A DNA stretch of 64,000 bases from Symbiodinium natans (lineage: Eukaryota > Sar > Dinophyceae > Suessiales > Symbiodiniaceae): NCBI GenBank assembly GCA_905221605.1, contig CAJNDS010002390.1, positions 1,222,813 through 1,286,812 of the forward strand. The letters run 5' to 3'. Each line of letters opens with the position of its first letter. The stretch's first letter is position 1. The notes under the pieces were generated by a model that worked only from the letters and a program-made list of their open reading frames with translations, had not been told where the DNA came from and did no database searches. A program made the translations under genes and the position numbers. This document shows positions 38,499-63,803 of this stretch, one piece after another.

Positions 38499-38507
38499 CA
38501 CTGTTTC

Positions 38508-38569: not shown

Positions 38570-38597
38570 GTTCCAGTCGCAGCCTGGCTTATAGTAG

Positions 38598-40231
38598 CGC
38601 CTGGACGAGCTAGATGTGAACATGTCTTTGTGGTACTTATTACCGTAACTTTAGATCCTTACCCTTTTCGGGTTTATTGGGGTTTCTTAATAAGGCAGCT
38701 AAAAGTTTAATTTATATGCTACCCTCCTGAGTGCAGCCAAGATGTGAACGTGGAAAGCCCTGCTTTGGCCCTTTGCTGCGCCTTGCCTTCCTTGCTGGAA
38801 GCGGTCGGATGCAGCTGCTTTTGCTCTTGCGGCCGTCCTGCAGTGCAGCGGTGAGGCATCAGGCACGGCTGGACTTGGTGTTCGTTTTCTTACCGCTGAC
38901 TGCTTCGGGCGCTTTCGCCGCGTCCTACTTCGAGGATGCTGGCCGCTTTGCCGCGTTCATCAGAGCATATCTCAGCATTCACATGGGCATTGCTTTGTCC
39001 TTCTTGCCTTTTGGCATCTTCTTGCGGAAGACGAACTGTTTGCACTATGCGGCTCATTATTTGGAGGATCCGCGCTGCAGCAATTTGCTCTGCGAAGGTT
39101 TAAGCTGGCTTCCACTGTTTGTGATCTCTCCTACATTGGTGACTGGAAGCGTGCAGGACATTGCTGACACTTTTGTGGAGGTCTACGCAAATATCATGAT
39201 GTATGTGCCCTTGTTTGAGGAGCCTCTCTCGCTGATCCTCCGCTATGCTGCCTACGCTAGCCTTGCCTGGGTCAGAATGTTGTATTTGAGCAGTTCAGAA
39301 GAAGTTCTTTCCATCAGCCTCAACCCCTTCCTTTGCCAGGTCGCTCTTATTGTAACTGTTTCTGCCGCGGTTTTGCGGATCAGGATGCAATGCTTAAGCC
39401 TGAAATTGACGCAGCTGACACCAGACAACCTAGAAGAGCACACCAGGATGGAGCCTGAGAAAGATGCGTCCAGGCAACATCGGCAGATGCTGAAGTTGCC
39501 ACTTGCTTTACAAGCGGACCGGGCCGATGGCACGGCCGTCATGAGAGAACGGGAGGTTAGGAGACGTAGGCAGCTCTACAAAGAAGAGTTGGCGAGCCGG
39601 CTTCTATATCCCCCTTGGGAACTATTTTCTATGTTTATTTGTATAAAACCAAGAGGACATTTAAACAATGTTTTTGTTAAGTTTCTAAGGGGAGTATAGG
39701 CTTCTGTGGGCCATCCACTTCTGCCGGCAAAGGGTGCTGACGTCTGATCTGTTAACCCACGTCCTCACTTTCCTGCACGAGTTCGACCGGCCTGTGGCCA
39801 ACTACGTCGGCCTGTTACACGATGACGACCGATCCATGATCTCAAGCTTGCAGCCAGCCTCCAGTTCCGGTGCCCCTTCATCGCTCTCTTCCGTTGCCGT
39901 ATTGCGCAAGGCGCTGTCTGCACGATGCTGGATCACCTTCGGGCGCCCTCCATGCCCTCCAGCGGCAGTCGAGTCCGCGGTTGAGCAAGCAAGCAGCTGG
40001 GATGTGCTTCTTGGCAGCCCAGTGGTACCTTTTTTGTTTTTTGGTTTAAGGTTCCCTTAGAAGATAACCAACCAACAAAGGGTGGCCTTGTTATAATATT
40101 ACTGGGGTACCAAGGCTTGTGCAAGCTTTATGCCGGCGTATGAGGATGTGAGGCCGAGAGGCCAGTTTTTCCGGTCTCCTGGCTCTGAGCGGAGTTTTTC
40201 TAGAGATCTCCTCCTGCGCCAGAGGGACTGA
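38598..40231 (+). CDS. Multi-spanning membrane protein, unknown family
   Basis: Exons 38598-38623, 38742-39599, 39700-40024 and 40115-40231 (TGA at 40229-40231) join in one open frame of about 440 codons. The long exon has about five hydrophobic segments (LDLVFVFLPLTASGAFAA; HMGIALSFLPFGIF; WLPLFVISPTLVTG; LILRYAAYASLAWV; CQVALIVTVSAAVL), then a charged Arg/Lys/Glu helix. The last part is Ser/Pro-rich and ends FSRDLLLRQRD. The first short exon is tentative; translation may instead begin at ATG 38809 (MQLLLLLRPS). There is no telomeric repeat inside the gene, and each intron is a 90-118 bp inverted-repeat element, unlike the other genes here. I recognise no family; function unknown. Confidence 0.7.
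38624..38741 (+). mobile_element. Introner-like element family A, copy 7, as an intron
   Basis: GTCTTTGTGGTACTTATTAC ... GAGTGCAGCCAAG. GATGTGAAC stands on both sides (38613-38621 and 38741-38749), a target-site-like duplication. GT-AG borders are present. Confidence 0.8.
38742..39599 (+). CDS. Membrane protein gene, long exon
   Basis: 858 nt, by far the longest exon in the window, encoding the membrane-spanning part. It ends ...ELASR with its last codon split by a GC-AG intron. Confidence 0.75.
39600..39699 (+). mobile_element. Inverted-repeat element family H, copy 2, as a GC-AG intron
   Basis: Removing the 100 bp from GCTTCTATATCC to AGTATAG restores the frame (ELASR then LLWAIHFCRQ). 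GGCTTCT occurs on both sides, so the element arrived by insertion with target duplication and created the splice sites. The other copy is 8846-8930. Confidence 0.85.
39700..40024 (+). CDS. Membrane protein gene, penultimate exon
   Basis: LLWAIHFCRQRVLTSDLLTH, an amphipathic stretch, then a Ser/Ala-rich part and SSWDVLLGSPV. Confidence 0.75.
40025..40114 (+). mobile_element. Inverted-repeat element family E, copy 1, as a GT-AG intron
   Basis: 90 bp from GTACCTTTTTTG to GGGTACCAAG. Splicing joins LLGSPV to ACASFMPAYE in frame. Related copies are 18680-18815 and 41963-42069. Confidence 0.85.
40115..40231 (+). CDS. Membrane protein gene, last exon
   Basis: 39 codons including the TGA: ACASFMPAYEDVRPRGQFFR then SPGSERSFSRDLLLRQRD. 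Confidence 0.75.
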   Translation, partial: ACASFMPAYEDVRPRGQFFRSPGSERSFSRDLLLRQRD

Positions 40232-44916: not shown

Positions 44917-44977
44917 GTATCGAAGATCATGGCAGCTGAGCCGAGCATGCGCGCGAAATGCGTGGCCGAGTTCGTCG
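44917..44977 (+). CDS. Aquaporin exon 1
   Basis: [16 protein letters not shown] from ATG 44929. The acceptor CCAG follows a CCCTAAA array. GC donor at 44978. Confidence 0.85.
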
Positions 44978-47900
44978 GCGCCTGTGCCCGATTTCAGCTC
45001 GAGGGGCGGAGCCTGCGCAAGCCTTCCACAGGTTATCAAGCTGAAGCTGCCCTAAAAACACCCTGCACAGGGTTTAGGGTTTAGGGTTCAGGGCTAGGGT
45101 TTAGGGTTTCGGGTTTAGGGTAGTTCAAGGCTTGCAGTTCTATCGCGCAGATGCTGTGAAGGTTGGGATGCTGAATAGGCTCGAAAGCTTCGTCTGGTGC
45201 GAGAAGCGGATATGGCCCGATCGTGGAGGGCCATCTAACACTTTTCTCCCACCCCGCGCCATATCAGTCGGCAACACCACCCTAGCTTATTCCTTTGAGG
45301 TTTAGGCCTAAAATCAATTCATTTGCCTGCTTCCAAAAGCTTTTCCCGTCCAGTGGGCGGTACCGATGGTATGCCAGGCCAGTTCCAGAGGGTCCAGTAG
45401 AAGGAGGAGGGGGACACTATATACACCCTAAACCCTCAACCCAAAACTCCTAAACCCGAAACGGGTTTAGGGTTTGGTTTCGAGTTTAGGGTGTCTTCTT
45501 GCTGCTTGCCTCGCGCACTCTCAGGGCTTGGGTTTCAGGGTTTCAGAGTCTCAGGGTTTCACAGTTTCAGGATTTCAGGGTTTCAGGGTTTCAGGGTTCG
45601 GGGTTTCGGATTATTTAGGGGGGGCTAAATTATGGTCCGTTTTAAGGGTTCCCCTATAAAAATGCGGTGCCAAGCATATTTGGGGTACCAAAAACACAAA
45701 GGGACCACCATGATTCAGATACCCCCCCAAAGAGTTCTACCACCAGGGTTACGATACAGAGTGTGTGAGGATTCACTGCCTTCGATGCCCTTACGTTAAG
45801 GAATGCACTCCAACGCAAACATACTTCAAGAAACAAGAGCCCATGATTCAGTCAAAGGTGCATGCCCTAAATCCCAAACCCTAAACCCTGAACCCTGCCC
45901 TAAACCTTAAATGGGCTCTCTAGAAAGCTGACCCCCGGAAGAGCCCAGGCACGTTCCTGCTTATCTTCACCGCCTTGACCTTGGCGTTTAGGGTGTAGGA
46001 TGAAGAGTGTAAGGTTTTAGTGATTAGGGCTTAGGGTTTAGGGTCAATTCCTCTGATAAGTTGGGTTGAGAGCTTGTAGGTTGACCTAGACCCCTGAATT
46101 ACAGTTCCGTTTTTGTGGGTGTCTGCAGGGAGGCATTTACTGTGCTAGCTGTGTCGGTTTCGAGTTTGGGAAATTCGGGGTTCAGGCGCTTAGGGGTTGG
46201 GAGGGTTTTGGGTTAGGGTTTACGGTTTAAGGTTTAACTAGGGTGTACCTAAGACTCTAATGTAGTTCCTTTTTGGGTTAGTCAAATGGGATTTTAGTAT
46301 ACTACCCAAAAAAGGTACTACATAGGAGCCTTTGGGTAGGGTTTAGGGGAGGGTTATAGGTGTATCAGGGAACCCAGTTGTTCGAAGATCGACCACCCAA
46401 CGCAGACCTTTGACTCAATGGTGAGCTGAGTTGATTCTAATTTCTTCATGTAGCCGCTTAGAGAAAACCCGTATGATACTAGATGTCCGCCCAGGTGGTA
46501 TGCAACCTGGCTACTGGTTCGCCGCTGTTCGGCGGCTTCTCCATTGGCACCGTGCTGTTTGTGATGATCCAGCCGCGTGTTTGCCAGTTCACTACGGGAC
46601 CTAAAGCCCTGAACCCTAAACCCTGAGCCCTAAACCCTAAACCCTAATCCCTTCCCCCTAATATAAAAGCCCCCCCCCCCCCCCCCCCCCCCCAGTATAA
46701 AAACCCCCCAAAACCCCTAAAGGTTTTTTTAGTATTAGGGAGGGTTCTGATCGGCCTAATAAGTTTCAGGCTTCCCCGCCCCCTAATTCTGTAGAGATAC
46801 TAAAAGGGGCGACTGCCGGACCGGGTTTTGGGTCCAGAGGGTGTTTATATTAGGGGTGTATTAATATTAGGGGGAAGGGATTAAAACCCACACCCTAAGC
46901 TTGTCTGGTGCTGGCATCGCTGGAGGGGTGGGAGTCGAGAGGGGGCCAAACCTCAGGCCATGAAGGGATTCTCGTCAAGGATATTTCTCTAGGGTTTTAG
47001 GGTTTGGGGTTTTAGGGTTTTGGATTTATGGTCTTAGGGTTTAGGGTCTTAGGGTTTAGGGTTTTAGAGGGTTTTCTTGGATGCTATGATACTTACCAAC
47101 TACCATGAAACCCATTATGGTATGTGTTTGGGATGTTCTCCCTTCTACTCACAGTCCTTAGCAGGGATGATGGTAGGGGGTGCTGGAATCCCTATGAAGG
47201 AGTGTTAGTTTAAGGGTGAACATCCCAAGTTGAAATCATCAACTCCTGCTTCTGCAGCAAAAACGGGGGGGGGGGGGGGGGACCTTGGCAAACCATGCCC
47301 AGAAGCGTGCGTGCGCAAACAGACCTGGTGCACATCATCATATGGCACATTGCGGCTTCTCTTTGGCTACCCTAAATGGCGGGGCGCGCATGCAGCCCTA
47401 AACCCTAAAAACTAAACCCTAAACCCTAAACCCTAAACCTTAAGTTCCCTCGCAAGAACCCAGACTCGCTTGACCCATGCCAGGCAAGAGCCCAAACCTG
47501 AGGAAATCTCTTCGTGGTTTTAGGGTTTACGGTTTAAGGTTACCACCCTAGACCCCTTAAACCCTCAACTCTTAAACCCTCAACTCTTAAACTTTAAACC
47601 TTTAAACCCTAAACCCTACACCCTGAAACCGTTTCAGGGTTTAGGATGTTAGGGTTTGGGGTTTTAGGGTTGAGGGTTTAAGAAGTCTAGGGTTTGCTTC
47701 AGCCAGCAAAATTCCGGAACCAGGATCTAGGGATTATGGCTTGTATTGTTGGGGGTTTAGGTTCTCTTAACCCTACTTAGACCCCATACGTCTAACCAGT
47801 ACAATCTTCGGGGAGCGTTTCAGGTTCGGAGGGGTTCTGAGCCTACAGCGACTGGCCCCTTACTACTGACTTAATATGCTTTTTTTACGGGATGGCTAAC

Positions 47901-50900
47901 ACCAAAGACCGAAACACTAGAATCGCATGGCTGGTTAGGGTTTAGGGTTCAGGGTTCAGGGTTCAGGGTTCAGGGTTCAGGGTTTAGGGTTTAGGGTTTA
48001 GGGTTTAGCGTTTAGGAAGCGTTTAGGGTTTAGGCTTTGGGCCTTGAGATGGCTAGGAGACCCACGCCCACACGCCCTAACGCCTCCACTCAACCACCCT
48101 TTTGCCTTGGTGGTGCTTTACTGTAACTTTAGATCCTTAGCCTTTTTGGGTTTATTTGGTTTCTTGTAACTTTAGATCCTTAGCCTTTTTGGGCTTATTG
48201 GGTTTCTGAATAAGGCAGCTAAAAGTTCAATTTTTTTGCTAGCCTCCTAGGTGCAGCCAAGTTGCCATAGCCTTTCGCACTGTGAATCAATCGGGAATAA
48301 GAGAACTAGGGGGGTTTAGGGTTTAGGGTTTCGGGTTTAGGGTTGTCTCTATATCTGAGGGTCTGCGATGGTAGGGGGCCCCTAATATAGAGTAGGATCT
48401 CCTGATAGTACGGACCCCAATGCCGTACCCCCTAATATGGGGGTTAAATAGACCCCCAAATAATAAGGTTCCCTTACCCATATTCATATAACCCTAAACC
48501 CTCAACCCCAAGAAGGTACCCACTAATATCGGAGAAACGCCCCCACATCTTCCCTTAAATGCTGAGGCCAGGATCTAGGAGCCAATAAAGGAAGAGTTTA
48601 GAGCTTGGGTTGAGGTTTTAGGGTTTTTGGGTTTAGGGTTTAGGGTTTGGGGTTTAGGGTTTAGCGTTTAGGGTTTCGGGTATGTTCGGGCTTTTGGGAC
48701 AACCCGCTTGCGAGGATACTTGCACCGGCTGAGGCTCAACAACGGGTTTAGGGGCTTGGGTTTATGGTCGTGGGGTGCTAGTTGGGCTGTACGGCAGCAG
48801 GCAGCAAGCCTGACGATATGACTCGAACACAGGGGCTACCCTTGTCAGACACTTCCCCAAACTTTAGACCCCAAACCTTTGTTGTCTTACTTACACCGTA
48901 AACCTACCCCAAACCATATAAACCCTAAACCCTAAACCCTAAACCCCAAATCGTTCCCTTGAGCCCAAAACGGCAGCCCAGGTCCTTCGGAAACATCTCC
49001 GGCGGAAATTTCAACCCAGCGGCTGGGCCGAGAGCATGGGAGGGCCATGTCAAGGAAAGCAGCGACGGCTGGGTTTAGGGTTTAGGGTTTAGGGCTTAGG
49101 GTTCAGGGTTCAGGGTTCAGGGCTTAGGGTTCAGGGTTTAGAGTTTAGGGTTTAGGGTTTAATTAGGCTTTGTACTTGTATGTCAAAAGTGAGTGTTTGC
49201 ATGTGTTGAGGGTGTAGGGGATATGTTCAAGCTGGAGGGTGGCATGTAGGCCAGGCTATACGCCCGGACTCACATTGTGGCAGGGAACATTCGCACCAGA
49301 CCCTATGCCTGAACCCACATCAAAAACCCTAACTCTTTATCTTAACACCTGAACCCTCCCTCTCCCGCCCCAAACCCTGAATCCTGGATCTTTCCTGAAG
49401 CGCTTGCTCACAAGTAGTGACGTGGAGTTGTGTTCCTCTGAGGCCTTATGGCTTTGGAAGCTCAGATCCTAACCCGAACTCCCTACCACCAACATTCCTA
49501 AAACCCTACACCCCTGTAATAAACCTTAGAACCTTAGAACCCTAAACCCAAAGCCCAAAGCCCAAACCCCGAAGCCCAAAGCCCCAAGCCCTCGGCCCTA
49601 CACCCTACACCCTACACCCTAAACCCTAAACCCTAAACCCTAAACCCTAAACCCTAAACCCTAAACCCTAAACCCTAAACCCTAAACCCTAAACCCTAAA
49701 CCCTAAACCCTAAACCCTAACCCTAAACCCTAAACCCTAAACCCCAGGCGGTCTCGGTGGCCTTGGGCTGCACCAAAACCCTGGGCGGCCCCGGCATGGA
49801 GTGGAGCCAGGCCGACTTGGGTGTTGGGGTTTAGGGTTTAGGCTTTAGGCTTTAGGCTTTAGGCTTTAGGCTTTAGGCTTTAGGCTTTAGGCTTTAGGCT
49901 TGAGGCCTTAGGCTTTAGGCTTTAGGCTTTAGGGTTTAGGGTTTAGGGCTTCACATGTGCTTAAGGTCCTTCAAAGGGATGGACCATGGGGCAACGGTCC
50001 TTTCTCTAGGACCAGAGCAGGCCTTCGGGTTCCTTAGAAGGGCCCGGTAAACCAAAACGTGTCTAGTCTTGGTGGCACCGGAATTAAACAACTACCAGTT
50101 CTGGTACTTGAAAGGTTCACGGGTTGCCAGAAGTAACGTTGTTTAGGGCTTGTAGCTTTGATGGAGTTTAGGGCTATGCGAACCTCAAGTAGTTTGAGAA
50201 ATAAAGTTATCAGAACATGGGCCTTTGTATAGGATTATATAGCCTGAACCTCCCCCCCACCCATTCTCGTGCGTTTTCTGTAGGCTTCCTTTCAATATCG
50301 GTGAGCGTACGCATTGGGCGTCTTTGCGGGGAGAGTCGAACACCCTAAACCCTAAACTTTAAACCCTAAACCCTAAACCCTAAACCCTAAACCCTAAACC
50401 CTAAACCCTAAACCCTAAACCCTAAACCCTAAACCCTAAACCCTAAACCTTTCTAACTTTTGGTAAGGGCAAGTAAGGTTAACTGCGGTTAACTTTGGCG
50501 GACCCCTGGGCTAGGGTCTTCTGGTTATGGTATTGGGCTTCGGGCTCAGGGGGTATGAGCTTGTAGGCTTGAGAGTTTGAATCCCCAAGCCCTAAACCCT
50601 AAACCCTAAACCCTAAACCCTAAACCCTAAACCAGAAGAGGTCCAGAAGTGACATTAGAGCTCCCTCGATCTCGAAGGCCTGTGAAGCCTTGGTGCAAAC
50701 AAGAAACACACTAGGCCCTACAGATCCTGAGCGTTCAGACCCTAAACCTTAAACCCTAAACTCGAAACCCTCAACCCTAGTCTGGAGAAAAGCTCACCCT
50801 AAACCCTCAACCCTAAACCCTAAACCCTAAACCCTAAAACCTAAACCCTAAAGAGTTGGAAAGGTGCTCATCTACTGTGTGGTCCAGATTGCGGGCGGCA

Positions 50901-52930
50901 TCGCTGCGGCCCTGATTGCGACCTTCATGTGCCACTGCGGATTGGGTCTTTGAAGCCCAAACCTGGGAACTCAGGATCTGGAGGAGGGTTTCGAGGGTTT
51001 AGGGTTGAGGACGTAGGATTTAGGGTTTGGGGTTTAGGGGTTCTTGTCGTTTGTTCACATAGAATCCGGGGGAAATGATGCAGCGTAGTATGTGATGGTG
51101 GTTGGAAGGGGAGTATAGAGTGGAGGTTTAGGGTTTAGGGTTTAGGTTTAGGTTTAGGGATCAGGGTTTGGGTTTAGGGTTGCTCATGGGGTTCAACCCT
51201 TCAAAGAACCCAAAACCTGCATCTTTAGTAGGTGCTGATTACAGAACCTCTTATTGTAGGATTCTTAGGCAAACCCGAAACCCAGAACCCAAAACCCTGA
51301 ACCCAAACAACGGCAGGTGTTGGCTGCTTATTGGGGGATTGAAGGTTGAAGCCTCCACGGCCTGGGCCGTCCCTAAACCCTGAAACTACCAACAAAGACC
51401 TGGGTTATTTGGGGTTCAGGGTTTAGGGTTTAGAGGTTAGGGCTTTAAGTTTACGTTTTAGGGTTTAGGGCTTAGGGTCTTTAAGTTTAGGGTTTAGGGT
51501 TTCGGGCTTAATGGAAGCCGCCAGGCTATAGAGCCCACTAGGCTTCGCGCGAAGTGCCTCCGCGATTCACCCTAAACCCTAAACCCTAAACCCTAAACCC
51601 AAAAACCGAAACCCTAACCCCTAAACCCTAACCCTAAACCCTAAACCCTAAACCCTAAACCCTAAACCTAAACCCTAAACCCTAAACCCTAAACCCTAAG
51701 GCGGCTGAGGGTTTAAGGCGTCTAGTCGTCGAGGGTGATCGGGTTGAAGGGCTTGGAAGGAAGCGGGCCCTAAACACCTAAACCCTACTTGGAGGTTCAT
51801 GGTAGTTCTAAGTGTGGCTAAAAGTCAGGTAGCAATAATTATAACTGGTTGTAACCCTATTTAGGGTACCTGTATCCCTAACATTAGCTACCCCTGAAAC
51901 TTCAAATGCACCCCTGTACCCTGTTTCACAATCCGCGTCTGTCGCAGACTAGACTGCAAAAGCCAGAGAGCTAACTACCCAACAAGCCCCCTTAATTAAC
52001 ACACAGAATATACCTTAAATCATATTATGGCTTCCTTATATAACTTAAGGAGTATTCCCCAATTAAGGGGTATTGGGCTCTGTGGGTAAGCTCCCATATG
52101 ATCCCGGGCGTCCGAAACCACGCTCACAGCTGTAAACCCCAAACAGCACGAAACCTGGAGAATTGCCCTCAACCCTAAAGCCTCAACCCGAAACCCTAAA
52201 CCCTAAACCTGCACCCCTGAAATGCCAGGTGTGGCAAGTCCTTCCCGGTGGCCGCCACGCCGGGGTACTCGACGATGTCGGCAGGTCTCGAGGTTTATTT
52301 GGGGTTTGGTCATGTCTTTAATAACTCCTCAAAAAGGGACCCTAATTTAGAGAACTGACTGTTTCTGGCTTCGGACTGAAGGTTTGGGGTTTGGGTTTGC
52401 CTGGCCGTGCAGTTGTTGTCGGGCAATACCTCTCAATCCATGGGGCTCTTTAGCGCCCCTAAACGCTTAACCCTACAGGGTTGAGACTTGGGGTGTTGGG
52501 GTTGGGTTGGGATGTTCCTGCTTGTCCTAACAGTCCTTAATGGGATTCTAATAGGGGTACTAGAATCCCTATTAAGGACTGTATGTATTTTCATTAATGA
52601 CTTATACATATGAGTATAATTTTAAGCTAGAAATACGTAAATATCTACATATATCTCAAAGTTCCCGGTCATTCTGGTTAAGCCCCCCCCCCCCCCCCCG
52701 CACCCACCATAAGCCCCATCTTTGCTATAGGCGTTGCACTGATAGTTCGGGCTGGGCGGACGAAGCTACAGCGAACAACACAGCAGAAGTACGCACGTGA
52801 CAAAGAAGCACCGGAGTTCTCCTCAAAGCAGGTCTCTGCGAGTACTTCTACACCTTCATGCTGACCTTCGTGGTCCTGAACGTAGCCGCTGCAAAGAAGA
52901 ACGCCCAGGAAATCTTGGGGTCGAACTTTG

Positions 52931-52962
<32 letters not shown>

Positions 52963-55900
52963 CGGGAGACAGACAGACAGACAGACAGACGGACAAACGG
53001 ACAGAGGTCGGCTCGAGCAGATGACAAACTTCGATGATAACGTTCATGTATATGTCTATATACATATATATATATATAGTTTTTTTATACTGATTTGTTT
53101 TGCCCCTGACTCATATTCTGTGTGTTTGTGTGCATATATATATATATATGTGTTTTTTATTTGTATGTATGTAGGTAGGTCGGTCGGTCGGTATGTATGT
53201 ATGCATGCATGTATGTGTGTATGTGTGTATGTGTGCATACATATACATATATATATATATATATTGTGTGTTCATGTCTGTTTACATGTGCATGTCCTGG
53301 TTTGGTTTGTGGGGCCAAGGATTTAAGATTCGGCTACAGGCTTCTGGAAGTGGCATGGTGTAGCAGCTGTAGGTTACTGGGGATCCAGAGAGCGGCCTTA
53401 TTCCTTGTTTTTTAGGATCGGGGTTCTCTGCTAACCCCAAGCCAAGAAGGGCACCCGTTTTGTTCCTAAGTTACTCCTGGGTCAATTTACTGCGGATCCT
53501 AGTTGACTGCTGTTGTGGAAAAGGTTTAGGGTTTTGGGATTTTAGGGTTCGGGGGTTTCGGTGGGCTGTCTTAGGTTGCTGAGGGACCTAGCGGTCGGCG
53601 GTGGATGGGTTTAGGTTAGGGTTTAGGGTTTAGAGTTTAGGGTTTAGCATTTAGGACTTAGGGATGGTCAGGAGGGCGGCCAGTACTACGGCCTGGCGAT
53701 CGGCTTCACTGTCATCGCGGGTGCCTACGGAGGAGGTTGCCCGATTGCCTAGCAGCCCGAAACAGTCGAGCCCAGACCCGGAAAAGTTGCACCACAAAAC
53801 CCTAAGACAATAGGATCTGGGATGTTCCCCCTTAGACTAACTGTCCTCAATAGGGATTAGAGTACCCCCTATTGGAATCCCTATGAAGGACTGTTAGTGT
53901 ATTTAAGGGGGAACATCCCAACCTAAGATCCTAAACCATAATCCCTCAACCCTAAACCCTAAACCCTGATCCCTAAACCCTACACCCTACACCCCAATCG
54001 CCAAACTGGGAGCCCAGTCACAAGTCGGCGATCTCCTTACATGATGCATCCCCCTCACCTATCCCAACAAACGCTCCTTATTTTGCAACGATTGAGGGTT
54101 TGGGGTTTAGGGTTTAGGCTTTGGCGTTCGTCTATAGAACGACCAAACGTGCATTTTGGGCGTGCATTGTGGTTCTAAGTGGAGCCTAGTAGCGCTTGCA
54201 GTCGCAGCCCTTTTCTTGTTGCAGGGTATATGAAGGGTATGTAAGGGCCCAACAATAGAGGCCGCTTTGGGGACCCACATTTTCAACCCTAGAAAAGACT
54301 TAGCATACAGGTTCGATTTACCTCAGTCGTGAGGAACCTTCATTCCCCAACTTCAAAAAGAATCAATATCATGACGACTCCTCGATGCGAGGGAACCTTT
54401 TTTTTGGGGGGTAGAGGGCCTTTGCACCGTGCTTCTTGAGTGTTGCGCTTTAAGCGTTCAGGGGTTTAGGCTTTGCCGTTTTTCGAGGGTTCAGGTTGGT
54501 TCTGAAGGCCCTGGGACTGTGGCCCCACACAGCACAGGACGTCTGGTGCCCACATAGAGGTTTTGGCCCTTCTGAACGGTCTCCGTGATAGTATCCTGGG
54601 TCCTCTTGAGTACCCAGAAGTGCATAGCATCTGGATCAGTCCTCACATCCTATGCTTATAGGGTCCTTGAGGGAGGGGGTGTCGGGAACCTTAGGGAAGC
54701 TTAGGGACCCTTAGTAAGGAGAGGGAAGAATGGGTTACATGCCCCCCCCACCCCCCGTGAATCCCCTTTCCTTAAGGAGCCTAGAAAAAAGCTTCAGGTT
54801 AACTGTACCCCATACCCTAAATCCTAAACCCTGAACCCTAAACCCTGTAGCCAGGTTTATGAAACTTCGAAAATTGCCTCTTCCGAACCCCGACAGGGTT
54901 TTTGTGCCCAAATAGTATGTAGTTGGGCCCTAAAGCTACCGGCAAGGAACCCTTGATTTTTACTAGATGGGTACATGGGCCTACGAAATACCCTTTAAGG
55001 GATGTTATAGGATGCCACATTACCTAAATTCCCCCTAAGAACCAGGAACCCTAAGCCCCCCCCCCCCCCCCCCCCACAAAAGAAATGTGTGTATGTATGT
55101 ATGTATGTACGTATGTATGTCTGTATGTATGTATGTATGTATGTATGCATGTATGTATATATTAAATATATACATATATATATATATGTATACATGTGTA
55201 TATATATATAGTTTAAACATAAATATCCCTGACCCCAACCTCCCAACCCGAAACGTGCTAAGGATGAATCTCGTGGTTTGCAGCTGCTATTTGTTGAAAA
55301 ACCCACGAAAAATAGAATGCAGTAATCCTGATTTTAGCCTTAAAAAGGAACAGTATGCTTGTCTTCTGGGGGTTCTTAAAGCAAATAGTAGGTAGATAGG
55401 TGGATTCTCCATGGAAGCTGGTAGGCTTCATTTCTGGCGGGTGCTTCAATCCGGCGGTCGCCATTGCGTTGGACATTACCAGCACCTGGGCTCACAAGGT
55501 TCTTATATGCGCGGTTCCCTGACCTTGACGACACGAACCCTAGAAGGGTTCATGGCCCATATACCCTCATAAGGATGAATTGCACACATGTATATATATA
55601 TATATACTATAGGGCATATGCTCCGAATTTTAGGGTTGATCTAGGCCACCAAGGAAATGACTCTGTTTGGCTGCACTTTCTAGAGGGCTCCATGCTACCC
55701 CGCAAAAAGGGACCAACATTTCGAGAAGCCCCCCCAATGCTACTACTTGCTTAAGAACCCCAAAACAAATTTAATAAAATCTTCCTAACAAGGTCTTCTC
55801 GGTTTTCCGGGTCGCTACATGGGACCTTAGTTTGGGCCCTTCAAGGACGACCCCTTTGCATACCCTACGCAACCGAAGGTCCCATACTTCAGAACCCTTT

Positions 55901-58900
55901 CAAGGAGGGGTCAGGGCCCAAAGTAAGGGACCGTGAAACTACCCCTAAACCCCGAGCCCGAAGCCCGTCAAAGGAAGGCAGGGGACCTTAAGGGACCATG
56001 AAACTACCCTTAAAGCCTTTACCCTTTAAAGGAAGGTAGGGGACTTTCAGGGACCATGAAACTATACCTAAACCCCAAACCCTAAGCCCTAAACCCTAAA
56101 CCCTTGACCCTAATTAAACCCTAAACCCTAAACCCTAATAGTTTAGGTCTGGCCACCTTGCTGCTGCCTCGCTCTTTTGGGGGGCTGCTGGGATCTGAGG
56201 CCTTGACAAGGGCTTCGGCGTCTCATTTGTGCAACCGGACCGAGACCGCGTGTGGGATCGTGTGGGTCGTTCTCTGAAATGGGGCTTTAGGGTTTTAGGG
56301 TTTACAGGGTTTATAGAGTTTATAGGGTTCATAGGGTTTTCAGGGTTTTTAGGGTTTTTAGGGTTTTTAGGGTTTTTAGGGTTTTTAGGGTTTTAGGGTT
56401 TAGGGTTTTGGGGTTTTAGGGTTTTAGGGTTTTAGGGTTTTAGGTTTTTAGGGTTTTAGAGTTTTAGGGTTTTAGGGTTTTGGGGAGGGCTCTGCTTTGC
56501 GATGCGATGCCCTCAATAAGTAGCCCCCCCCCGGCCCCCACAAGGGACCTCTAGGCTTGTTTCGATGTGTTGCCCCAGTGGCCCGGCTAGATTCGATGGT
56601 CTGGTCCATTGGATTAGGGGTTCAGGGGTTTAGGGTTTCGGGCTTCGGAGGGCTTCGGGCGGATTTCAGGAGGATCCGCTCGGCCTGGGCATAGAACCCG
56701 CTGAATTCACCTTGTCTGTCCCTAAAGCCTAAACCCCAACCCTAAACCGCACTAGACCCTCAACCCAAAGCTTTTGAAGTAGAAAGGTTCTCCGTCCTTG
56801 TTGTGAAGGGGCGGTGTAGGGTTGCTGGGTGTAGGCCGCAGGCCCTTGAATCAAGCTCTAAAGGCAATGCGTGTTCGCACGGGAAATGCGGGTTGCAGAT
56901 GGTTGCAGGATAGTGTTGAGGCAACACCCTAAACCCTAAACCCTAAACCTTAAACCCTAGACCCGATGTTTGGGGTTAGGTACATCATCTTCCAGCTCTT
57001 GGCGGCACTCGCCTCGGCAGGTATCTTCGCGAAGGCTGCCGGGGCCTGCACCGAAAACCCGAACCGACAACCCTGGAGCCCTACTGTATGGTTCTTACTT
57101 ATAGGGTTTAGGGTTTAGGGTTTAGGATTTAGAATGAGGGAACGAGGGAATGTGCCCGTCGGTAGCACTACTTTTGGGAAGAGATGAGCAGGTGGACAAT
57201 ACTTACTGTTGGTTAGTCGGGAATGTGGGATTTAGGGTTTAGGGTTTCGGGAATGAGGTACCCTATGTAATCCATTAAAGGGTATATACAGGGCTCTAAT
57301 TCCCTCATTCCCTACTAAGAACCAGCCAGACCTTCAGAACCCAAAGCCTGCTTTTTTGCAGGTTCTTCTTTGGGATGCTCCCCCTTATACTGACAGCTCC
57401 GTAATAGGGATTCTACTACCTCCGATTAGAATCCCTGTTAAGGACTGTTAGTATAAGGGGGAACATCGCAAGAACTCTTCTTACAAAAAGAAGGAAACCT
57501 TACAGGATTCTGAGGCAATTAACTACAGAAAAGTAGGTTTAGGGTTTAGGGTTTAGGGTTTAGGGTTTAGGGTTTAGTGTTTAGGGTTTAGGGTTTAGGG
57601 TTCGTAAGGTCGAACTCCAAGATGCACGAGCCGACACCTATTGTCCAATGTTGTTCCTGCTCCAACCCCGAAACCCTAACCCAATCCCTAAACACGAAAC
57701 CTTGAATCCGAAGCCCTAAAGAAATAGGTTTGGGGTTTGGGGTTTAGGGTTTAGGGTTTAGGGCTCAGAGGGTTACATGACCACGGAGAACTTCAAGGAG
57801 TGGCCCCGACCCGAAGTTCCAGCCGTGGCGCTTTCAAGGTTTCGGGGGTTCCCTTTTCGTCGAAGTGTGAGAGTCCTCAACCCTAAGCCCTACTCTAAAT
57901 AAACCCTCATTCATAAACCCTAAACCCCTAAACCCCAATCCCCAAACCCCCAAACCCCCAAACCCCCAAACCCCCAAACCCCAAACCCTAAACCCCCAAG
58001 CCCCAAACCCCAAACCCCCAAGCCCCCAAACCCCCAAACCCCAAAACCCCTAGCCTGAGCAGCTCTAAGTTCACTGGTCGCTGGTGAAATGTCTAGCTGT
58101 CTTCGAGCAGACTCCAAGAAGCAGCTTCCATGGCTACCATTTGAGCCCCCAAAAAGCCCAAATCTAACCCTAGGCCCTACAAAAGGAGCCCAAAACCTAC
58201 TGTTTCGTAGCTTACCTAAGAACCCTATAAGGGGTTTTAAATACGAAGAACCTACAACAAAAAGGTAGGTGTTGGGTTCTTCAGGGTAGGCACTAAGGCC
58301 AGAAGACCCCAAACTCTAGAACCGAAACCCTGCTTCCTAGACTGTCTAGGGTTTATGGGGTTTAGGGATGTTTACGGTTTATGGTTTAGGGTTTAGGTTG
58401 AGGGTTTAGGGTTTAGGGTTTAGGGTTTAGGTTTTAGGGTTTAGGGCCAACCTGAACCGGGCTGCTGCTTTTGCAGATTCGGCCGGAAGACTTCGACAAG
58501 GCCCCAAGCACAGGCGACGCGACGAAGGGCGACGCCGGGTGGAGAGTTTGGTTTTTATACATGGGATTTATAGGGTTTAGGGTTTAGGGTTTAGGGTTTA
58601 GGGTTTGGAGCTATGGAGTTTAGGTTTCCCTTTCGAATGTGAGCACTTTCATTCTATTTGCCACTCCGTTGCACGTATTTCTGCCTGCCGGCAGGCAACC
58701 GCATACGTATGCAGGTTCCTATGTGTATTCTTGTATGTACTACTAATTGCTTAAGAACCCCCCCAAATAAAAATACTCTTCCTTACTAAGGGTAATATAA
58801 GGATTGTTGTTTTTTATTATCTTTTGGGGGGTTCTTAAGCTTAGTAGTGTAGGCCCTAAACCCTAAACCCTAAACCCTAAACCCTAAACCCTAAACCCTA

Positions 58901-61900
58901 AACCCTAAACCCTAAACCCTAAACCCTAAACCCTAAACCCTAAACCCTTAACAGGCGTGCCTGGTATGGTTCGGGTACAGCTTGTATTATTTGGGTTGTT
59001 GTTCGGGCCTTTCGTTCGGCTCACGGCTACTCTTCTTGCCCAATCCCACCTGAAAGCGAGAATCCTGTGCTCTTACTTTCCCACCGGTTAAACCCTAAGC
59101 CCTCCCTAAACCCTAAACCCTAAACCCTAAACCCTCTCTTCAGCAGTTGCTCTCCATGGACATAGCGCCGAGTCACGAGTCACGAGAGCCTTCTGGTGAG
59201 GCAAGGCGACTGAGCAGCTGCTGAGCGAGTTCGTGGGAACCTTCATGCTGGTGCGGGGCTCGATTTGATGGTAAAGCCCTACGCTTAGAACCCACAACCT
59301 GCTCTTTTTTTAGGTTGCCTAAGAATCCTACGAGGGTCTTGTACGAAGAACCTACAAAAGTAGGATTTGGGGTTCTTAAGGTAAACCCTAACCCCCTAAA
59401 CCCTAAACCCTAAACCCCATACCCTCAACCCTAACCCCTAAGCACTAAGCCCTAAACCCTAAACCCTAAAGCCTAAACCCTAAACCCTAAACCCTAAACC
59501 CTAAACCCTAAACCCTAAACCCTAAGCCGGCCTAAACCCTAACCCCAAAAAGGTCACCCCCTGAACAACCCTAAAGGGGATGCATACCCTCAGCCAGCCC
59601 CCCGCGAGACCCCAAGATGTCCCAGGAACCCAGAAATGGCACAACCACAGCTGTATTTTAGGGTTTGGGGTTTGGGGTTTGGGGTTGGGGTTTGGGGTTT
59701 GGGGCTTGGGGGTTTGGGGTTTGGGGTTTGGGGTTTAGGGTTCCCTCCTATGGGTTCGTCTACCTCCACAGGGGCGGCCCCTTCGAACATCCTTGCAAGC
59801 GCCGAAAAGGCAGTTTCCAAAATCTCGGGACCTCCGGTTTAGGGTTTAGGGTTTAGGGTTTTGGGTTTAGGGTTTAGGGTCTCTATACCATCAACTGCAG
59901 CACAATCTCCCTTGCAGGAAGGCGCCTAGTCTTCGGAAGCCCCGAAACTGAAGCCCCAATAGAAATGATGCTTATTCTGTTACAATGAAACCGAGAGGCA
60001 GGGTTCTAAGGCGTGGAATACCGAAATCTAAAAGACCGAGCCTGCTAGGTGTTCACCGTAGCGTGCAACATCTTCGCCCTCTCTGCGATTGCGGCACTCT
60101 CTATCGCGGCCTCCCTGGCAAGCGCTTTGGCCTTTTAGGGGTTTATGAATCTAGACCGGTAAGGCCCTAAGCATGTCCCTAAACCCTAAACCCTAAACCC
60201 TAAACCCTAAATTAGGATTAAGATTTCCAGGCAAATTGGGACAGAACGTGCGCATGCTTTTGGCAATGAGGGATATACTGAAACAGGGTCTACCTGTAGC
60301 CTAAGCAACAACATCTCTGGGGTTCTTTATTGTTTAGGGTTTAGGGTTTCCTTACATGTTCCCCTGAAAGCCGTATGTTTCCTTATATGTTCCCTGTAGA
60401 ATTGCAGGTGCGCTAGCGTAAAAACCCTAAAAACCGTACACGACCCAACAAAGCCCCTCGAAGCTGTAAACCCTAAACCCTAAACCCTAAACCCTAAGCC
60501 CTAAGCCCTAAAGCCTAAACCCTAAACCCTAAACCCAGTCAGGCATGATCTATGCCACGGGAGACGTCTCCGGCTGCCTGGCAGAAACCCAAAACACCCA
60601 TGCTCTTGTAGGCTACCTATAAGAATTTTAGAAGGGGTGTTAGAAGAAGAACCCACAAAAAGTAGGGTTTTTGGGGCTCTTAAGGCAGGGAATAAAAGGG
60701 TTTGAGGTTTAGGCCCTTCGAGTCCCCCTGAAGACCTTGAACCCCCAAGCTCTTCATTCACTTTCTGAGGACTTGGGCTTTGGAGTACTATGCTTCAATA
60801 CTTTTTTTTTGGGTTTGGGGTTCCCATTATAGCTACTTATACCTAAAAAGTATATACTTTTTTTTTCTGGGTCTACTCCAGAGGTAGGAGACTACGCTTC
60901 CCGCATACTCTCCGAAGCCCCAAGCCCTAAAGCAGAGAAGGGTACGCTCAAGCCCTAAACATTGTGATGTTCCCCCTTCTACGAACAGTCCTTCATAGGG
61001 AATGTAATAGGGGTGCTATCCTTTCGATTAAAGGACTGTTAGTATAAGGGGGAACATCCCAACATAAACCCCAAGTGCTCTCATAGTCTTGGAGCAAAAG
61101 GCCCAGAACCCGTTTTTGTTTGCGTTGCGGCCCGCGGCTACAGAAAAGAAAGCTGCCCCGCAGCAGCAACCCAAAACAAAATACACCCCGCTGCTACATG
61201 CTCGTACAGCAGAAAAAGCACACCCCCCCCTTGCCACGACTACAGAGAAAAACGCAAGCCTGCGAGTGCGTGAGTGAGTGTGCCCGAGGCCCGCAGCAAC
61301 AGCACAAATATGAAGTGCCCCCACTGGCACAGATAGAAAAAACTGAGGGTCCGCGAGTGAGCGCTAGAAACAAAAGGGGTGAGAGCGGGGGGCAGGGCTG
61401 CGACTTTTCACCCGTGCAAGTTTACCTTGTGAAGCACATAAGCCCATGAAGAGGACTCGTATTTAACAACGTTGTGTATCGCAAATGGCAGGGGGGCCCC
61501 CCACCCTGCCGGTCAGCCTGACATGCAAATATAAGCAGACACGCTACAAGCCATACACCCGTAAAGCCTTTAAGCCACAAGTAGCCCGAAAGCATCAATC
61601 CTACACCCTTTAACCCTAAACCTTGAATACCCCTCAATGGCCCTTAAGCGACCCTTAGTATCCTCAATGACCTTAACGACCCTTCATGACCCTAAACCCT
61701 AAACCCCAAAACCCTTAACCACGCTTTCCTGAGCCTTAAAAAGCCCCCAAAACTGGGTGGTGCTTTACTGTAACTTTAGATCCTTAGCCTTTTTTGGGTT
61801 TACTGGGTTTCTTAATAAGGCAGCTAAAAGTTTGATTTTTTGCTGGCCTCCTAAGTGCAGCCAAGAAAACCCCAAGGGGGCCACTTCAACCCGGCAGTGA

Positions 61901-63803
61901 GCCTGGCAGTGTACTTGAGCGGTGTCTCAGCTGATAAGGGTTTACAGTTGGGATGTTTTTCGTTCTGCTATGACAGTCCTTGATAGGGATTTCTAGTACC
62001 CCCTATGATATTCCCTAGTAGGGGGTACTCTAATCCCGATTAGTGTACCTGAGCGGTGTCTCAGCTGGCCCAGCGGCCCTTCAACCTGGTCTACAGGGTG
62101 TAGGGTTGAGGGTTTAGGGGGTTTAAGTGGGTTTAAGAGCGTTTAGGGGGTTTTGGGTAGTTTTGGTGGTTTTGGGGGTTTACAGGGTTTACAAGTTTCA
62201 CAGGGTTTACAGGGTTTACAGGGTTTACAGGGTTTGCAGGGTTTACAAGGTTTACAGGGTTTACAGGGTTTACAGGGTTTACAGGGTTTACAGGGTTTAC
62301 AGGGTGTACAGGGCTCATGCTCCCCACCCCCAAAATTTGAGGGCTTAGGGCTTAGGGCTTCGGGCTTCGGTCTTCAGTCTTAGGGCTTAGAGACCTTCTA
62401 GGTACGGGTACGATCACTGTATGCACAAGGGAGGGAGCTAGCGGTAGGAGGCTTTAGGGCCCCAAAGGTCTTTGTGTTCAGGTTCGGACCCCTTATATTT
62501 TACCAGCAGGCCTTCATCGAAATTATAGTACCCCCCCATTAGGACTGATAGTACAAAGGGTGAGCATCCCAAGGCTTAGGGCTCATCATGTCGTTTATGT
62601 GTATGGCTTGAAGACACCCAGAGGTCGAGGGTGGTAAAGCCTCGCCAGTTATAGCTGCCTCCAGGCAGGGTCTTGGGATGACTTTTGGGGGGGTCCTCGA
62701 GGGTATAGGGTTTAGGGTTTAGGGTTTTGGATGATTCGAACCACGGACGCCTGGGCTGGCAGCATGTGCCAGGTTTGGGGGATGTTTTCGGGTTCAGTGT
62801 GCTTTTTGGGTTCAGGGTTTAGGGCTTGGGGCAAGCCTCAAACTTAAACCATTTTGAATTAGGGCTCGTAAGGCTTGGAGTAGTCGGGCTTGTCATGGTA
62901 GATGCCCACCATTCAACAGCCCTAGGCCGAGACAGCCTCTTTACCGAGAGAAAGTGCGTCCTCTACATGCTGTCGCAGGCCCTAATCGTAAACCCTATGC
63001 CCCTGTAAACCCTATAGACCCGAGAACCCTAAGCTGTCGGTGGAAGTCCTTGTGTGGGCCAAGATGTTGCTTTTGGGGGTTGACAGGTTCAGGGCCAGCA
63101 GGAGTTTTCCTAAACCGTACCCCCTAAACCCTGCACTCTTAACACCCTAAAACCCCCCAAAAACCCTAAACCCTAAACCCTAAACCCTAAAACCCCCAAA
63201 CCCTTAAGCAAAGCCTGTCCTCGAAGTGCTGATCTTGGCTTGGGGGTATCGGGCTTGTGATTCAGGCTGTTGGAGTGAGCCCCAGGCGTACTCTGAAATC
63301 CGAAACTCAACGGGAAAATCTCAGCTTTGAATTGAAGCCCTAAACCCTAAACCCCGAAACCCCTAAACCCTAAACCCTAAAAACCCTAAACCCTGTAAAC
63401 CCAAAACCCCTGATTGTGGCATTGAGAGCATGGGGACCTTTGGGATCCTGAGTGCGATAAGAGGCTTGTTAGGCCTCTTGGGCCGAGCGTGCAGGGGTTT
63501 GGAGGCCATGAGGTGTATGTAGGCTGTAGGGTTCATAGGGTTTCGAGGGTTTCGAGGGTTTCGTGGATTTACAGGGTTTGGAGGGCTTAGAGGGTTTATA
63601 GGGTTTCCAGCGTTCGTAGGGTTGCCTCGAGTTTGTTTCGAACCCTTCCTAAACCCTAAACCCTAAACCCTAAGCCCTAAACCCTAAACCCTAAACTCTA
63701 AACCCTAAACCCTAAACCCTAAACCCTAAACCCTCCATGTGTTTTTTCCAGACCCTCGCCGGCCTCCTGGCAGCTCTGATCGCGGGGAGCGCGGCCCGGC
63801 CTA
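44917..63803 (+). CDS. Aquaporin (MIP family), probably a fused double aquaporin, 3' end beyond window
   Basis: At least seventeen tiny exons joined by phase and family match. First domain: N-terminal [28 protein letters not shown], then NPA motif 1 in [11 protein letters not shown]. The mid-domain reads [16 protein letters not shown], loop [14 protein letters not shown] and helix [17 protein letters not shown]. Then come [22 protein letters not shown] motif 2 in [32 protein letters not shown] and the linker [15 protein letters not shown] second domain follows in phase: [36 protein letters not shown] in [23 protein letters not shown] and [15 protein letters not shown] proteins carry water or small solutes through membranes. 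Met 44929 is the likely start, 12 nt after an AG that could be a cis or spliced-leader acceptor. Val replaces the usual Arg after NPA 2. Alternative: two tandem single-domain genes. Confidence 0.9.
45949..45971 (+). CDS. Aquaporin exon 2 (23-nt microexon)
   Basis: Completes Gly, then TFLLIFT; acceptor GCCCAG, GC donor. It exactly fills the gap between EFVG and VVCN expected for helix 1 of a MIP. Confidence 0.8.
46246..46339. mobile_element. Palindromic element family C, copy 8
   Basis: TACCTAAGACTCTAATGTAG ... GGAGCCTTTGGGTAG, inside aquaporin intron 2. Confidence 0.85.
46495..46571 (+). CDS. Aquaporin exon 3
   Basis: [18 protein letters not shown] then TVLFVMI; acceptor GCCCAG, GC donor. 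End of helix 1 and helix 2. Confidence 0.9.
46670..46693. repeat. Poly(C) tract
   Basis: About 24 C, inside aquaporin intron 3. Confidence 0.95.
47128..47228. mobile_element. Palindromic element family B, copy 5
   Basis: TTTGGGATGTTCTCCC ... GGGTGAACATCCCAA, inside aquaporin intron 3. Confidence 0.8.
47938..48015 (+). repeat. TTTAGGG array with a TTCAGGG variant block
   Basis: Six consecutive TTCAGGG units between TTTAGGG units. Confidence 0.95.
48116..48261 (+). mobile_element. Introner-like element family A, copy 9, internally duplicated
   Basis: 146 bp instead of about 112: the block TAACTTTAGATCCTTAGCC occurs twice, 47 bp apart. The ends are CTTGGTGGTGC and GTGCAGCCAAG. Confidence 0.85.
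48982..49018 (+). CDS. Aquaporin exon 4 (first half of NPA 1)
   Basis: [12 protein letters not shown], 37 nt, acceptor GCCCAG, GC donor. The intron lies between Pro and Ala of the first NPA motif. Confidence 0.85.
49611..49745 (-). repeat. Telomere-type array ending in a splice acceptor
   Basis: About nineteen CCCTAAA units whose last unit runs into CCCCAG|GCGG, the acceptor of aquaporin exon 5. Confidence 0.95.
49748..49810 (+). CDS. Aquaporin exon 5 (second half of NPA 1)
   Basis: [19 protein letters not shown] then SQ, GC donor after CAG; re-entrant helix and loop before helix 3. Confidence 0.85.
49826..49950 (+). repeat. TTTAGGC variant array flanked by TTTAGGG
   Basis: About thirteen TTTAGGC units between TTTAGGG units, at the 5' end of aquaporin intron 5. 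Confidence 0.95.
50338..50449 (-). repeat. Telomere-type array (CCCTAAA)n
   Basis: About sixteen units. Confidence 0.95.
50864..50928 (+). CDS. Aquaporin exon 6
   Basis: [20 protein letters not shown] then FM; acceptor AAAG, GT donor. Helix 3. Confidence 0.9.
51571..51702 (-). repeat. Telomere-type array (CCCTAAA)n
   Basis: About eighteen units, some CCCTAA or CCCCTAA length variants. Confidence 0.95.
52229..52284 (+). CDS. Aquaporin exon 7
   Basis: [18 protein letters not shown]; acceptor TGCCAG, GT donor. Loop C and start of helix 4; phases 2 and 1 match both neighbours. Confidence 0.85.
52507..52585. mobile_element. Family B element, right end missing
   Basis: TTGGGATGTTCCTGCTTGTC ... 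TATTAAGGACTGTATG; the right arm is replaced by AT-rich DNA. Confidence 0.7.
52832..52908 (+). CDS. Aquaporin exon 8
   Basis: [18 protein letters not shown] then AAKKNAQ; acceptor AAGCAG, GA donor (GAAATC). Helix 4, the most conserved MIP stretch here. Confidence 0.9.
52936..52998. repeat. (AG)n then (GACA)n microsatellite
   Basis: AG repeats followed by GACA tetranucleotides just after aquaporin exon 8. Confidence 0.95.
53056..53270. repeat. TA/TG/TATG microsatellite cluster
   Basis: Several (TA)n, GTAT and GGTC tetranucleotide runs. Confidence 0.95.
53672..53735 (+). CDS. Aquaporin exon 9
   Basis: [19 protein letters not shown] then GG; acceptor GGTCAG, GT donor. Helix 5; the phase-1 end is completed by exon 10. 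Confidence 0.9.
53818..53920. mobile_element. Palindromic element family B, copy 7
   Basis: CTGGGATGTTCCCCCTTAG ... AAGGGGGAACATCCCAA. Confidence 0.85.
55055..55215. repeat. Poly(C) and (GTAT)n/(TA)n tract
   Basis: About 20 C followed by (GTAT)n and (TA)n. The ORFs on both strands across it are low-complexity. Confidence 0.95.
55425..55498 (+). CDS. Aquaporin exon 10 (NPA 2)
   Basis: [20 protein letters not shown] then TWAHK to GT at 55499. A GC donor at 55486 (after ...DIT) would also fit the phase of exon 11. NPA 2 is followed by Val, not Arg. Confidence 0.9.
56300..56485 (+). repeat. TTTTAGGG/TTTTTAGGG variant array
   Basis: About twenty units with one or two extra T compared with the canonical heptamer. 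Confidence 0.9.
56961..57034 (+). CDS. Aquaporin exon 11
   Basis: [20 protein letters not shown] then IFAK; acceptor CCTAG, GC donor. Helix 6 of the first domain. Confidence 0.8.
57330..57540. mobile_element. Family J element interrupted by a family B element
   Basis: The outer element (CTTTTTTGCAGGTTCTTC ... CAGAAAAGTAGG) is of the kind seen at 16568, 59285 and 60590. A family B copy (57370-57470) sits within it. Confidence 0.6.
57370..57470. mobile_element. Palindromic element family B, copy 8
   Basis: TTGGGATGCTCCCCCTTAT ... TATAAGGGGGAACATCGCA. Confidence 0.85.
57920..58055 (-). repeat. CCCCAAA variant array
   Basis: About seventeen CCCCAAAC / CCCAAAC units; on the other strand TTTGGGG. 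Confidence 0.9.
58477..58545 (+). CDS. Aquaporin exon 12 (inter-domain linker)
   Basis: [19 protein letters not shown] then AGWR to GT at 58546, or ending at the GC at 58534. Acceptor TTGCAG. RPEDF is a typical segment after MIP helix 6. No stop lies in frame before the possible donors. Confidence 0.75.
58736..58853. mobile_element. Inverted-repeat element family L
   Basis: TACTACTAATTGCTTAAGAA ... GGTTCTTAAGCTTAGTAGTG, clear inverted ends. Confidence 0.8.
58855..58948 (-). repeat. Telomere-type array (CCCTAAA)n
   Basis: Thirteen perfect units. Confidence 0.95.
59206..59250 (+). CDS. Aquaporin exon 13 (start of second MIP domain)
   Basis: [15 protein letters not shown]; acceptor GCAAG, GT donor. 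It resembles exons 1-2 (AEFVGTFLL). A TGA precedes it in frame, so it must be joined to an upstream exon. Confidence 0.85.
59285..59390. mobile_element. Family J element
   Basis: AGAACCCACAACCTGC ... GAAGAACCTACAAAAGTAGG; matches 58195-58290 and 60590-60690. Confidence 0.6.
59395..59540 (-). repeat. Telomere-type array (CCCTAAA)n, degenerate
   Basis: About twenty units. Confidence 0.9.
59655..59735 (+). repeat. TTTGGGG variant array
   Basis: About eleven GGTTTGG units, the complement-type variant of the block at 57920. Confidence 0.9.
60049..60121 (+). CDS. Aquaporin exon 14 (second domain)
   Basis: [20 protein letters not shown] then ASLA; acceptor GCTAG, GC donor at 60122. Helices 1-2 of domain 2. 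Confidence 0.85.
60543..60572 (+). CDS. Aquaporin exon 15 (second domain, microexon)
   Basis: MIYATGDVS, 30 nt, acceptor GTCAG, GC donor. It joins exon 16 to give the stretch [10 protein letters not shown]. Confidence 0.85.
60962..61062. mobile_element. Palindromic element family B, copy 9
   Basis: GATGTTCCCCCTTCTACG ... AGTATAAGGGGGAACATCCC. Confidence 0.85.
61753..61865 (+). mobile_element. Introner-like element family A, copy 10
   Basis: CTGGGTGGTGCTTTACTG ... AAGTGCAGCCAAG, ending 11 bp before aquaporin exon 16. Confidence 0.85.
61877..61932 (+). CDS. Aquaporin exon 16 (NPA of second domain)
   Basis: [18 protein letters not shown]; acceptor CCAAG; probable GA donor (GATAAG). The 3' border is complicated by a duplicated copy of its end beyond the next element. 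Confidence 0.8.
61948..62040. mobile_element. Family B element flanked by duplicated exon sequence
   Basis: TTGGGATGTTTTTCGTTC ... GGGGTACTCTAATCCCGATTAG. The right terminal arm is atypical. About 24 bp of coding sequence (GTGTAC.TGAGCGGTGTC, continuing TCAGCTG) stands on both sides. Confidence 0.7.
62175..62305 (+). repeat. TTTACAGGG nonamer tandem array
   Basis: About thirteen units of a 9-bp repeat built from the telomere-like GGGTTTA plus CA. It encodes VNPVNP or YRVYRV runs in the ORFs across it, which are artefacts. Confidence 0.95.
62486..62571. mobile_element. Family B element, diverged
   Basis: CCCCTTATATTTTACCAGCA ... GTGAGCATCCCAA. Confidence 0.5.
62936..62978 (+). CDS. Aquaporin exon 17 (second domain)
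   Basis: [14 protein letters not shown]; acceptor AGACAG (or AG at 62947-62948, starting RKCVLYM), GC donor after CAG. Start of helix 3 of domain 2. Confidence 0.75.
63647..63735 (-). repeat. Telomere-type array (CCCTAAA)n
   Basis: About thirteen units immediately before aquaporin exon 18. Confidence 0.95.
63752..63803 (+). CDS. Aquaporin exon 18 (second domain, 3' border uncertain)
   Basis: [18 protein letters not shown]; acceptor TTTCCAG preceded by a T-rich tract. It joins MLSQ in phase 0. Donor candidates: GC at 63789 or 63792, or GT at 63804. The remaining half of the second domain lies beyond the window. Confidence 0.8.

Follow-up and report, generated by a model that had tools for sequence, protein, structure and literature searches.

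One gene, probably two aquaporin-type domains in one chain: a MIP fusion in the genome of the dinoflagellate Symbiodinium natans

Introduction

A 64,000-nucleotide stretch of the Symbiodinium natans genome (here called the window, on contig C2078) raises the question of whether a single gene can encode two MIP (aquaporin-type) domains in one chain, or whether two neighbouring genes have been read as one. A first-pass annotation, made from the letters of the window, had proposed a complete MIP domain with two NPA boxes, followed by a linker exon encoding RPEDF and by a phase-compatible exon that opens a second MIP domain. Proteins with several MIP domains from dinophytes and ochrophytes were reported in 2024 under the name SAR IX, as predicted proteins whose reliability was called hard to assess (PMC11316224). 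Among dinoflagellates, a study of Karenia brevis describes two MIPs with six predicted helices each (PMC4203930).

Results

A splice model for the window gene

The exons of the window gene lie in changing frames, and their junctions were enumerated with AG on the 3' side, using as template the protein of an intron-free relative on contig C2308; around the TM6 and linker exons, a one-residue offset in two exon cores put a false gap into the scores of three junctions, of which two nevertheless gave the adopted join, and the third, between coding exons 12 and 13 (57034/58477), was placed by hand. This procedure gave 19 coding exons on the forward strand between 44929 and 63790 (Table 1), which together comprise 981 bases and 327 residues with zero stops, and have a GC3 of 0.81. 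Three of them (coding exons 2, 11 and 18) are additional to those named in the first-pass annotation. The spliced residues scored 137.4 bits against the Pfam MIP family PF00230 (cut-off 25), which places the product in the MIP superfamily. In an early hand-spliced version, whose domains were scored apart against the same cut-off, domain 1 reached 72.9 bits and the in-window part of domain 2 reached 36.6 bits. The first domain is present, as had been proposed (44929-57034, with both NPA boxes), and a second domain does begin after the linker, at 59201, with a first NPA box of its own. The 18 introns comprise 12 GC-AG, 5 GT-AG and 1 GA-AG, a mix that fits the dinoflagellate pattern, for which these three donor types are given in PMC11453091.

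Domain 2 continues past the end of the window, where five downstream pieces on the same contig match C2308 residues 357-452 in order; one of them, NPAVALGL, supplies the second NPA box. Because part of the intervening downstream DNA reads N, at least one group of its exons escaped view. Upstream of 44900, the best tblastn match of the two MIP domain proteins, among the matches listed, had an E value of 0.91, which is a weak sign of absence since the exons are short. The stretch 57771-57824 was considered as a linker exon and rejected; it scores as non-coding (-4.8), has no counterpart in C2308, and its frame runs into a stop.

Table 1. Coding exons of the window gene and the intron between its two domains (window coordinates).
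Feature	Position	Strand	Remarks
Coding exon 1, ATG, start of domain 1	44929..44977	+	donor GC
Coding exon 2, microexon, TFLLIFT of TM1	45949..45971	+	weakest single blastn match to C2308, E 0.37
Coding exon 3	46495..46571	+	
Coding exon 4, first part of NPA box 1 (domain 1)	48982..49018	+	
Coding exon 5, remainder of NPA box 1 (domain 1)	49748..49810	+	
Coding exon 6, TM3	50864..50928	+	
Coding exon 7	52229..52284	+	
Coding exon 8, TM4	52832..52908	+	
Coding exon 9, TM5	53672..53735	+	
Coding exon 10, NPA box 2 of domain 1	55425..55481	+	
Coding exon 11, LDKGFGVSF	56200..56230	+	
Coding exon 12, TM6 of domain 1	56980..57034	+	end fixed by hand
Coding exon 13, linker	58477..58513	+	exon 12 of the first-pass annotation
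Inter-domain intron, GC-AG, phase 1	58514..59200	+	687 bases; in-frame TGA 59197-59199
Coding exon 14, start of domain 2	59201..59250	+	exon 13 of the first-pass annotation
Coding exon 15	60049..60121	+	
Coding exon 16	60543..60572	+	
Coding exon 17, NPA box 1 of domain 2	61877..61921	+	
Coding exon 18	62926..62978	+	
Coding exon 19	63752..63790	+	donor not fixed, may be past 63790

Several other features of the window were recorded. Telomere-type arrays of CCCTAAA/TTTAGGG occupy introns and spacers in positions 1-64000, with 294 exact, partly overlapping matches to the 21-base triple repeat on both strands and 0 in 100 shuffles. An inverted-repeat element of about 85-100 bases with GGGATGTTCCCCCTT ends occurs with paired ends at 29551-29648, 47130-47226, 53819-53919, 57372-57469 and 60964-61060, several of these copies lying within introns of the MIP gene; single ends gave 17 matches at up to two mismatches, where shuffles averaged 1.26, and the element looks like a small non-autonomous mobile element. 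Two further repeats were noticed by eye: a stretch beginning GGTGGTGCTTTACTGTAACTTTAGATCCTTAGCC in two different introns (approximately 48109-48250 and 61756-61865), and a direct repeat, GTAC[T/C]TGAGCGGTGTCTCAGCTG, which spans the end of coding exon 17 (approximately 61911-61933) and recurs in the next intron (approximately 62045-62067). Upstream of the MIP gene, 36321-39891 holds an exon-like cluster with the same codon bias, mainly on the forward strand, with an overlapping signal on the reverse strand. Rfam and tRNA scans of the window returned no match.

The join between the two domains

The fusion hinges on the step from the linker exon to the exon that opens domain 2. The top-scoring join, 58513|59201, runs from ACAG|GCGACG to CTGGTGAG|GCAA in phase 1 with GC-AG borders, so that the phase compatibility claimed for these two exons holds and the frame is kept; the best and second-best linker joins scored 116 and 110, and both preserve frame and fusion. 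It had been argued that the second of these exons must be spliced to something upstream, since it has no start codon in its frame and is preceded by an in-frame TGA. Both observations are correct, with the refinement that the TGA (59197-59199) lies inside the intron, whose acceptor AG is at 59199-59200, and that the exon itself begins at 59201. With the TGA directly upstream, domain 2 has no in-frame ATG ahead of TM1.

This lack of a start bears on the reading in which the window holds two separate tandem genes with 687 bases between them, the downstream one opening with a spliced-leader-capped exon of its own. Tandem arrays are many in dinoflagellates (PMC11453091), and an ATG at about 59156 does stand downstream of a pyrimidine-rich AG, but its frame differs from that of domain 2. 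A reading from this ATG that invoked a single-base indel was dropped once the two-domain frame on C2308 had been found.

Two-domain relatives in the same genome

The genome (759,417,921 bases in 2543 contigs) was searched with PF00230, yielding at least 33 MIP matches, with 48 candidates scored. The search had no match at the window gene itself, whose exons are too short for it. In four places a single open frame carried two MIP matches that do not overlap, once each on C2308 and C2177 and twice on C2433 (frames of 479, 443, 452 and 440 codons, respectively). The C2308 frame holds a complete two-domain chain of 454 residues from its ATG, with four NPA boxes and no introns, scores 161.1 bits against PF00230 (cut-off 25), and is the only one in which both domains are complete in a single frame. 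The two C2433 frames contain four NPA boxes, lose homology just past the last one and end inside domain 2, and the C2177 frame contains three NPA boxes and also stops inside domain 2. On C1963, one frame of 328 codons contains RPEDF flanked by the second half of domain 1 and the whole of domain 2; on C2131 the two domains lie in two neighbouring frames, and RPEDF is absent; C113 and C1982 carry further MIP pieces. Together, these loci indicate that two-domain MIP genes form a family in this genome and are not a local accident.

Locus L012 contains, at 1928-7541 on the reverse strand, a tandem pair of double-MIP genes with 1165 of 1188 bases identical over their first 396 codons; both lose homology shortly after NPA box 2 of domain 2, a point at which there is probably an intron or a change of frame. 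At L018 (C113), the order of pieces (D1, D2, D1-like, D2-like) suggests two more double-MIP genes head to tail. The best solved relatives of the C2308 protein were NIP2-1 (E 2.4e-18) and AQP4 (E 5.7e-14), and a Kyte-Doolittle scan of it gave 11 peaks above 1.3, not 12.

The spliced window gene aligned to C2308 with zero gaps, sharing 289 of 327 residues and 850 of 981 nucleotides; the differences fell 35/11/85 on codon positions 1/2/3. The lack of gaps is partly by construction, since C2308 guided the choice of splice sites. When taken singly, all 19 exons matched C2308 by blastn (E 3e-27 to 0.37, the weakest over 25 bases). The idea that two MIP domains share one chain is supported by the C2308 frame, and the window gene would probably be translated in the same way. 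The two-gene reading, by comparison, has to account for both whole domains in that one frame, for three more frames (two on C2433, one on C2177) in which domain 1 and the linker are followed by the greater part of domain 2, for the exact C2308 counterpart of the linker exon with its in-frame join, and for a second domain with no start of its own; we regard it as highly improbable. A pseudogene or an assembly artefact would be compatible with a domain 2 that lies partly outside the window, with at least one piece not visible, but this explanation is scarcely credible beside a dN/dS of 0.125 across the visible length, a stop-free, GC3-rich reading of all 327 residues, and the copies on other contigs.

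The linker and the possibility of cleavage

The RPEDF exon, which had been singled out as the link between the domains, is present, and the linker of C2308 is the same and of the same length. The dN/dS values between the window gene and C2308 (NG86) were 0.145 for domain 1, 0.084 for domain 2, and 0.103 for the linker (residues 219-240), where 6 silent and 3 amino-acid-changing substitutions were counted; the linker thus looks coding and constrained, on few sites. The motif RPE[DE]F was found in six of the seven loci with a readable linker, being RPEDF in the window, C2308, both C2433 copies and C1963, RPEEF in C2177, and absent from C2131.

A chain with a short, hydrophilic linker could also be a polyprotein that is cut there into two ordinary single-domain MIPs, and polyproteins are documented in dinoflagellates, for example for the light-harvesting protein and Rubisco II (PMC11453091). 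Against this, the linker is under roughly the same constraint as the domains on either side, and its motif is kept in nearly all readable loci, although a conserved cleavage site would look alike on both counts. Cleavage is, in our judgement, unlikely, and an uncut two-domain chain is the reading carried forward below.

Intron history

The window gene and C2308 differ in their introns, and this difference could have arisen in two ways. The window copy may have taken most of its introns from introner elements, or C2308 may be an intron-free retrocopy. Introner-driven intron gain is reported for dinoflagellates (PMC11453091), and the read portions of several family members have few introns. Moreover, none of the five in-window domain 2 introns falls at an alignment column occupied by an intron of domain 1, and the closest pair is 3 columns apart, so that most introns probably arose after the duplication of the domains, or moved. 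Three observations speak for a retrocopy instead. The first is a weak spliced-leader-like stretch 82 bases ahead of the C2308 ATG, matching 14 of 21 bases of the dinoflagellate leader printed in PMC7245778 and equalled in 2.8% of 500 shuffles; the last 12 bases matched at 10 positions (1.4% of shuffles) and the last 10 at 9 (0.8%), these figures coming from three queries at three loci and being uncorrected. Upstream of the two C2433 copies no spliced-leader relic was found, the best matches being 12 and 11 of 21, which 51% and 95% of shuffles matched. Second, the 3' flank of C2308 matches DNA about 1.25 kb beyond the final coding piece found for the window gene (81% over 53 columns). Third, by eye, one C2131 intron may coincide in position and phase with the intron at residue 190 of the window gene. 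Introner gain as the main source of the window introns is a possibility that we consider doubtful, and C2308 is likely to be a retrocopy of an intron-bearing gene. The fusion is compatible with either history and does not depend on whether C2308 is a retrocopy.

Origin of the two halves

A tree of 36 rows was built from 14 domain halves, 20 of 80 prokaryotic MIP loci, and 2 single MIPs of the same genome (support given as bootstrap/SH-aLRT). All eight first halves formed one clade (96/92), all six second halves formed another (99/99), and these two clades were sisters (99/98). A further supported branch (96/95) separated the halves and 12 prokaryotic rows with NPAV from 8 prokaryotic rows with NPAR and both single MIPs, and the branch linking the halves to the nearest particular prokaryotes was weak (92/62). 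In reading this tree, it should be kept in mind that domain 2 of the window gene fills 41% of the columns and that long branches lead to both single MIPs and to one bacterial row. The best account of this arrangement is one old internal duplication and fusion, preceding the spread of the family, from which both halves would derive. Within C2308, domains 1 and 2 are 36% identical.

Selectivity filters

Positions of the ar/R filter were read by alignment to E. coli AqpZ. At LE2, where an orthodox water-selective aquaporin has arginine, valine was found in 11 of the 14 halves, that is, in every half that covers the position, and the 11 readable second NPA boxes read NPAV. Each domain carries two NPA boxes: C2308 has all four, and in the window gene domain 1 has both, with the first box of domain 2 in the window and the second downstream. 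The seven covered first domains read I/A/G/V in four (window, C2308, C2433 and C1963), I/G/A/V in two and T/G/G/V in one, and the four covered second domains read I/G/G/V in three, C2308 included, and A/G/G/V in one. Of the 12 aligned NPAV prokaryotic rows, eight had I/A/G/V, the others having I/V/G/V, V/A/G/V and, twice, T/Y/A/V; since I/A/G/V is common to most of these rows, the lack of the arginine is probably older than the fusion. The prokaryotic loci L029-L033 and L035-L037, from several phyla, are single-domain MIPs with NPAV in the second box, seven of the eight reading I/A/G/V and L029 reading I/V/G/V. A filter without arginine argues against a strict water channel, and the pores are probably wider, less polar, and suited to small neutral solutes.

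Discussion

We conclude that the window very probably holds one gene whose product would be a single chain, in which a short RPEDF linker connects two MIP domains. The argument is that C2308 has both domains and the linker in one frame, and that what can be seen of the window gene splices to yield the same protein. Such a gene may have arisen by one internal duplication and fusion. MIP domains in general have six helices and keep both termini in the cytosol. From this topology, a short cytosolic linker would let the two domains lie next to each other in a common orientation, and, judging from the fold, two chains could then assemble into a pseudo-tetramer in which D1 and D2 pores, two of each, occur at a fixed 2:2 ratio. 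A fuller proposal, which we offer tentatively and rate at somewhat below an even chance, is that two-domain chains may pair into a 2+2 pseudo-tetramer that acts as an obligate hetero-pore channel, with the filter arginine missing from pores of either type, and that this arrangement may have persisted since a single internal duplication at the root of a dinoflagellate, or perhaps dinophyte/ochrophyte, family. The protein would then be a naturally occurring aquaporin concatemer whose two specialised pores carry a non-water solute. The intron-free C2308 gene (454 codons) is an exact construct for questions about a natural two-domain aquaporin concatemer and an arginine-free filter.

Compared with known systems, the classical aquaporins AqpZ, AQP4 and NIP2-1 belong, like the present protein, to the MIP family by Pfam, but they are single-domain, and AqpZ has NPAR with the filter arginine where NPAV is found here. 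The prokaryotic NPAV loci listed above fall on the same side of the 96/95 branch as all the domain halves, but are single-domain and have no linker. Dinoflagellate polyproteins such as Rubisco II, the light-harvesting protein and luciferase (PMC11453091) also carry repeated domains in each chain, whereas the halves of the present gene have diverged. The closest likeness is to SAR IX, as described in PMC11316224, which also has more than one MIP domain per protein, three or four NPA boxes, and dinophyte hosts. At least two MIP domains per chain are found here in the DNA, and, likened by description, the window gene looks like a SAR IX-type multi-MIP protein, a kind already noticed in print and hardly studied. 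The SAR IX members are predicted proteins in that account, whereas here the fusion is seen in DNA, in both an intron-rich and an intron-free copy. What is added is a DNA-level case for a constrained fusion, with a defined linker, a single duplication and arginine-free filters in both halves, so that genome evidence points to a real, constrained two-domain chain where the 2024 survey found reliability hard to assess.
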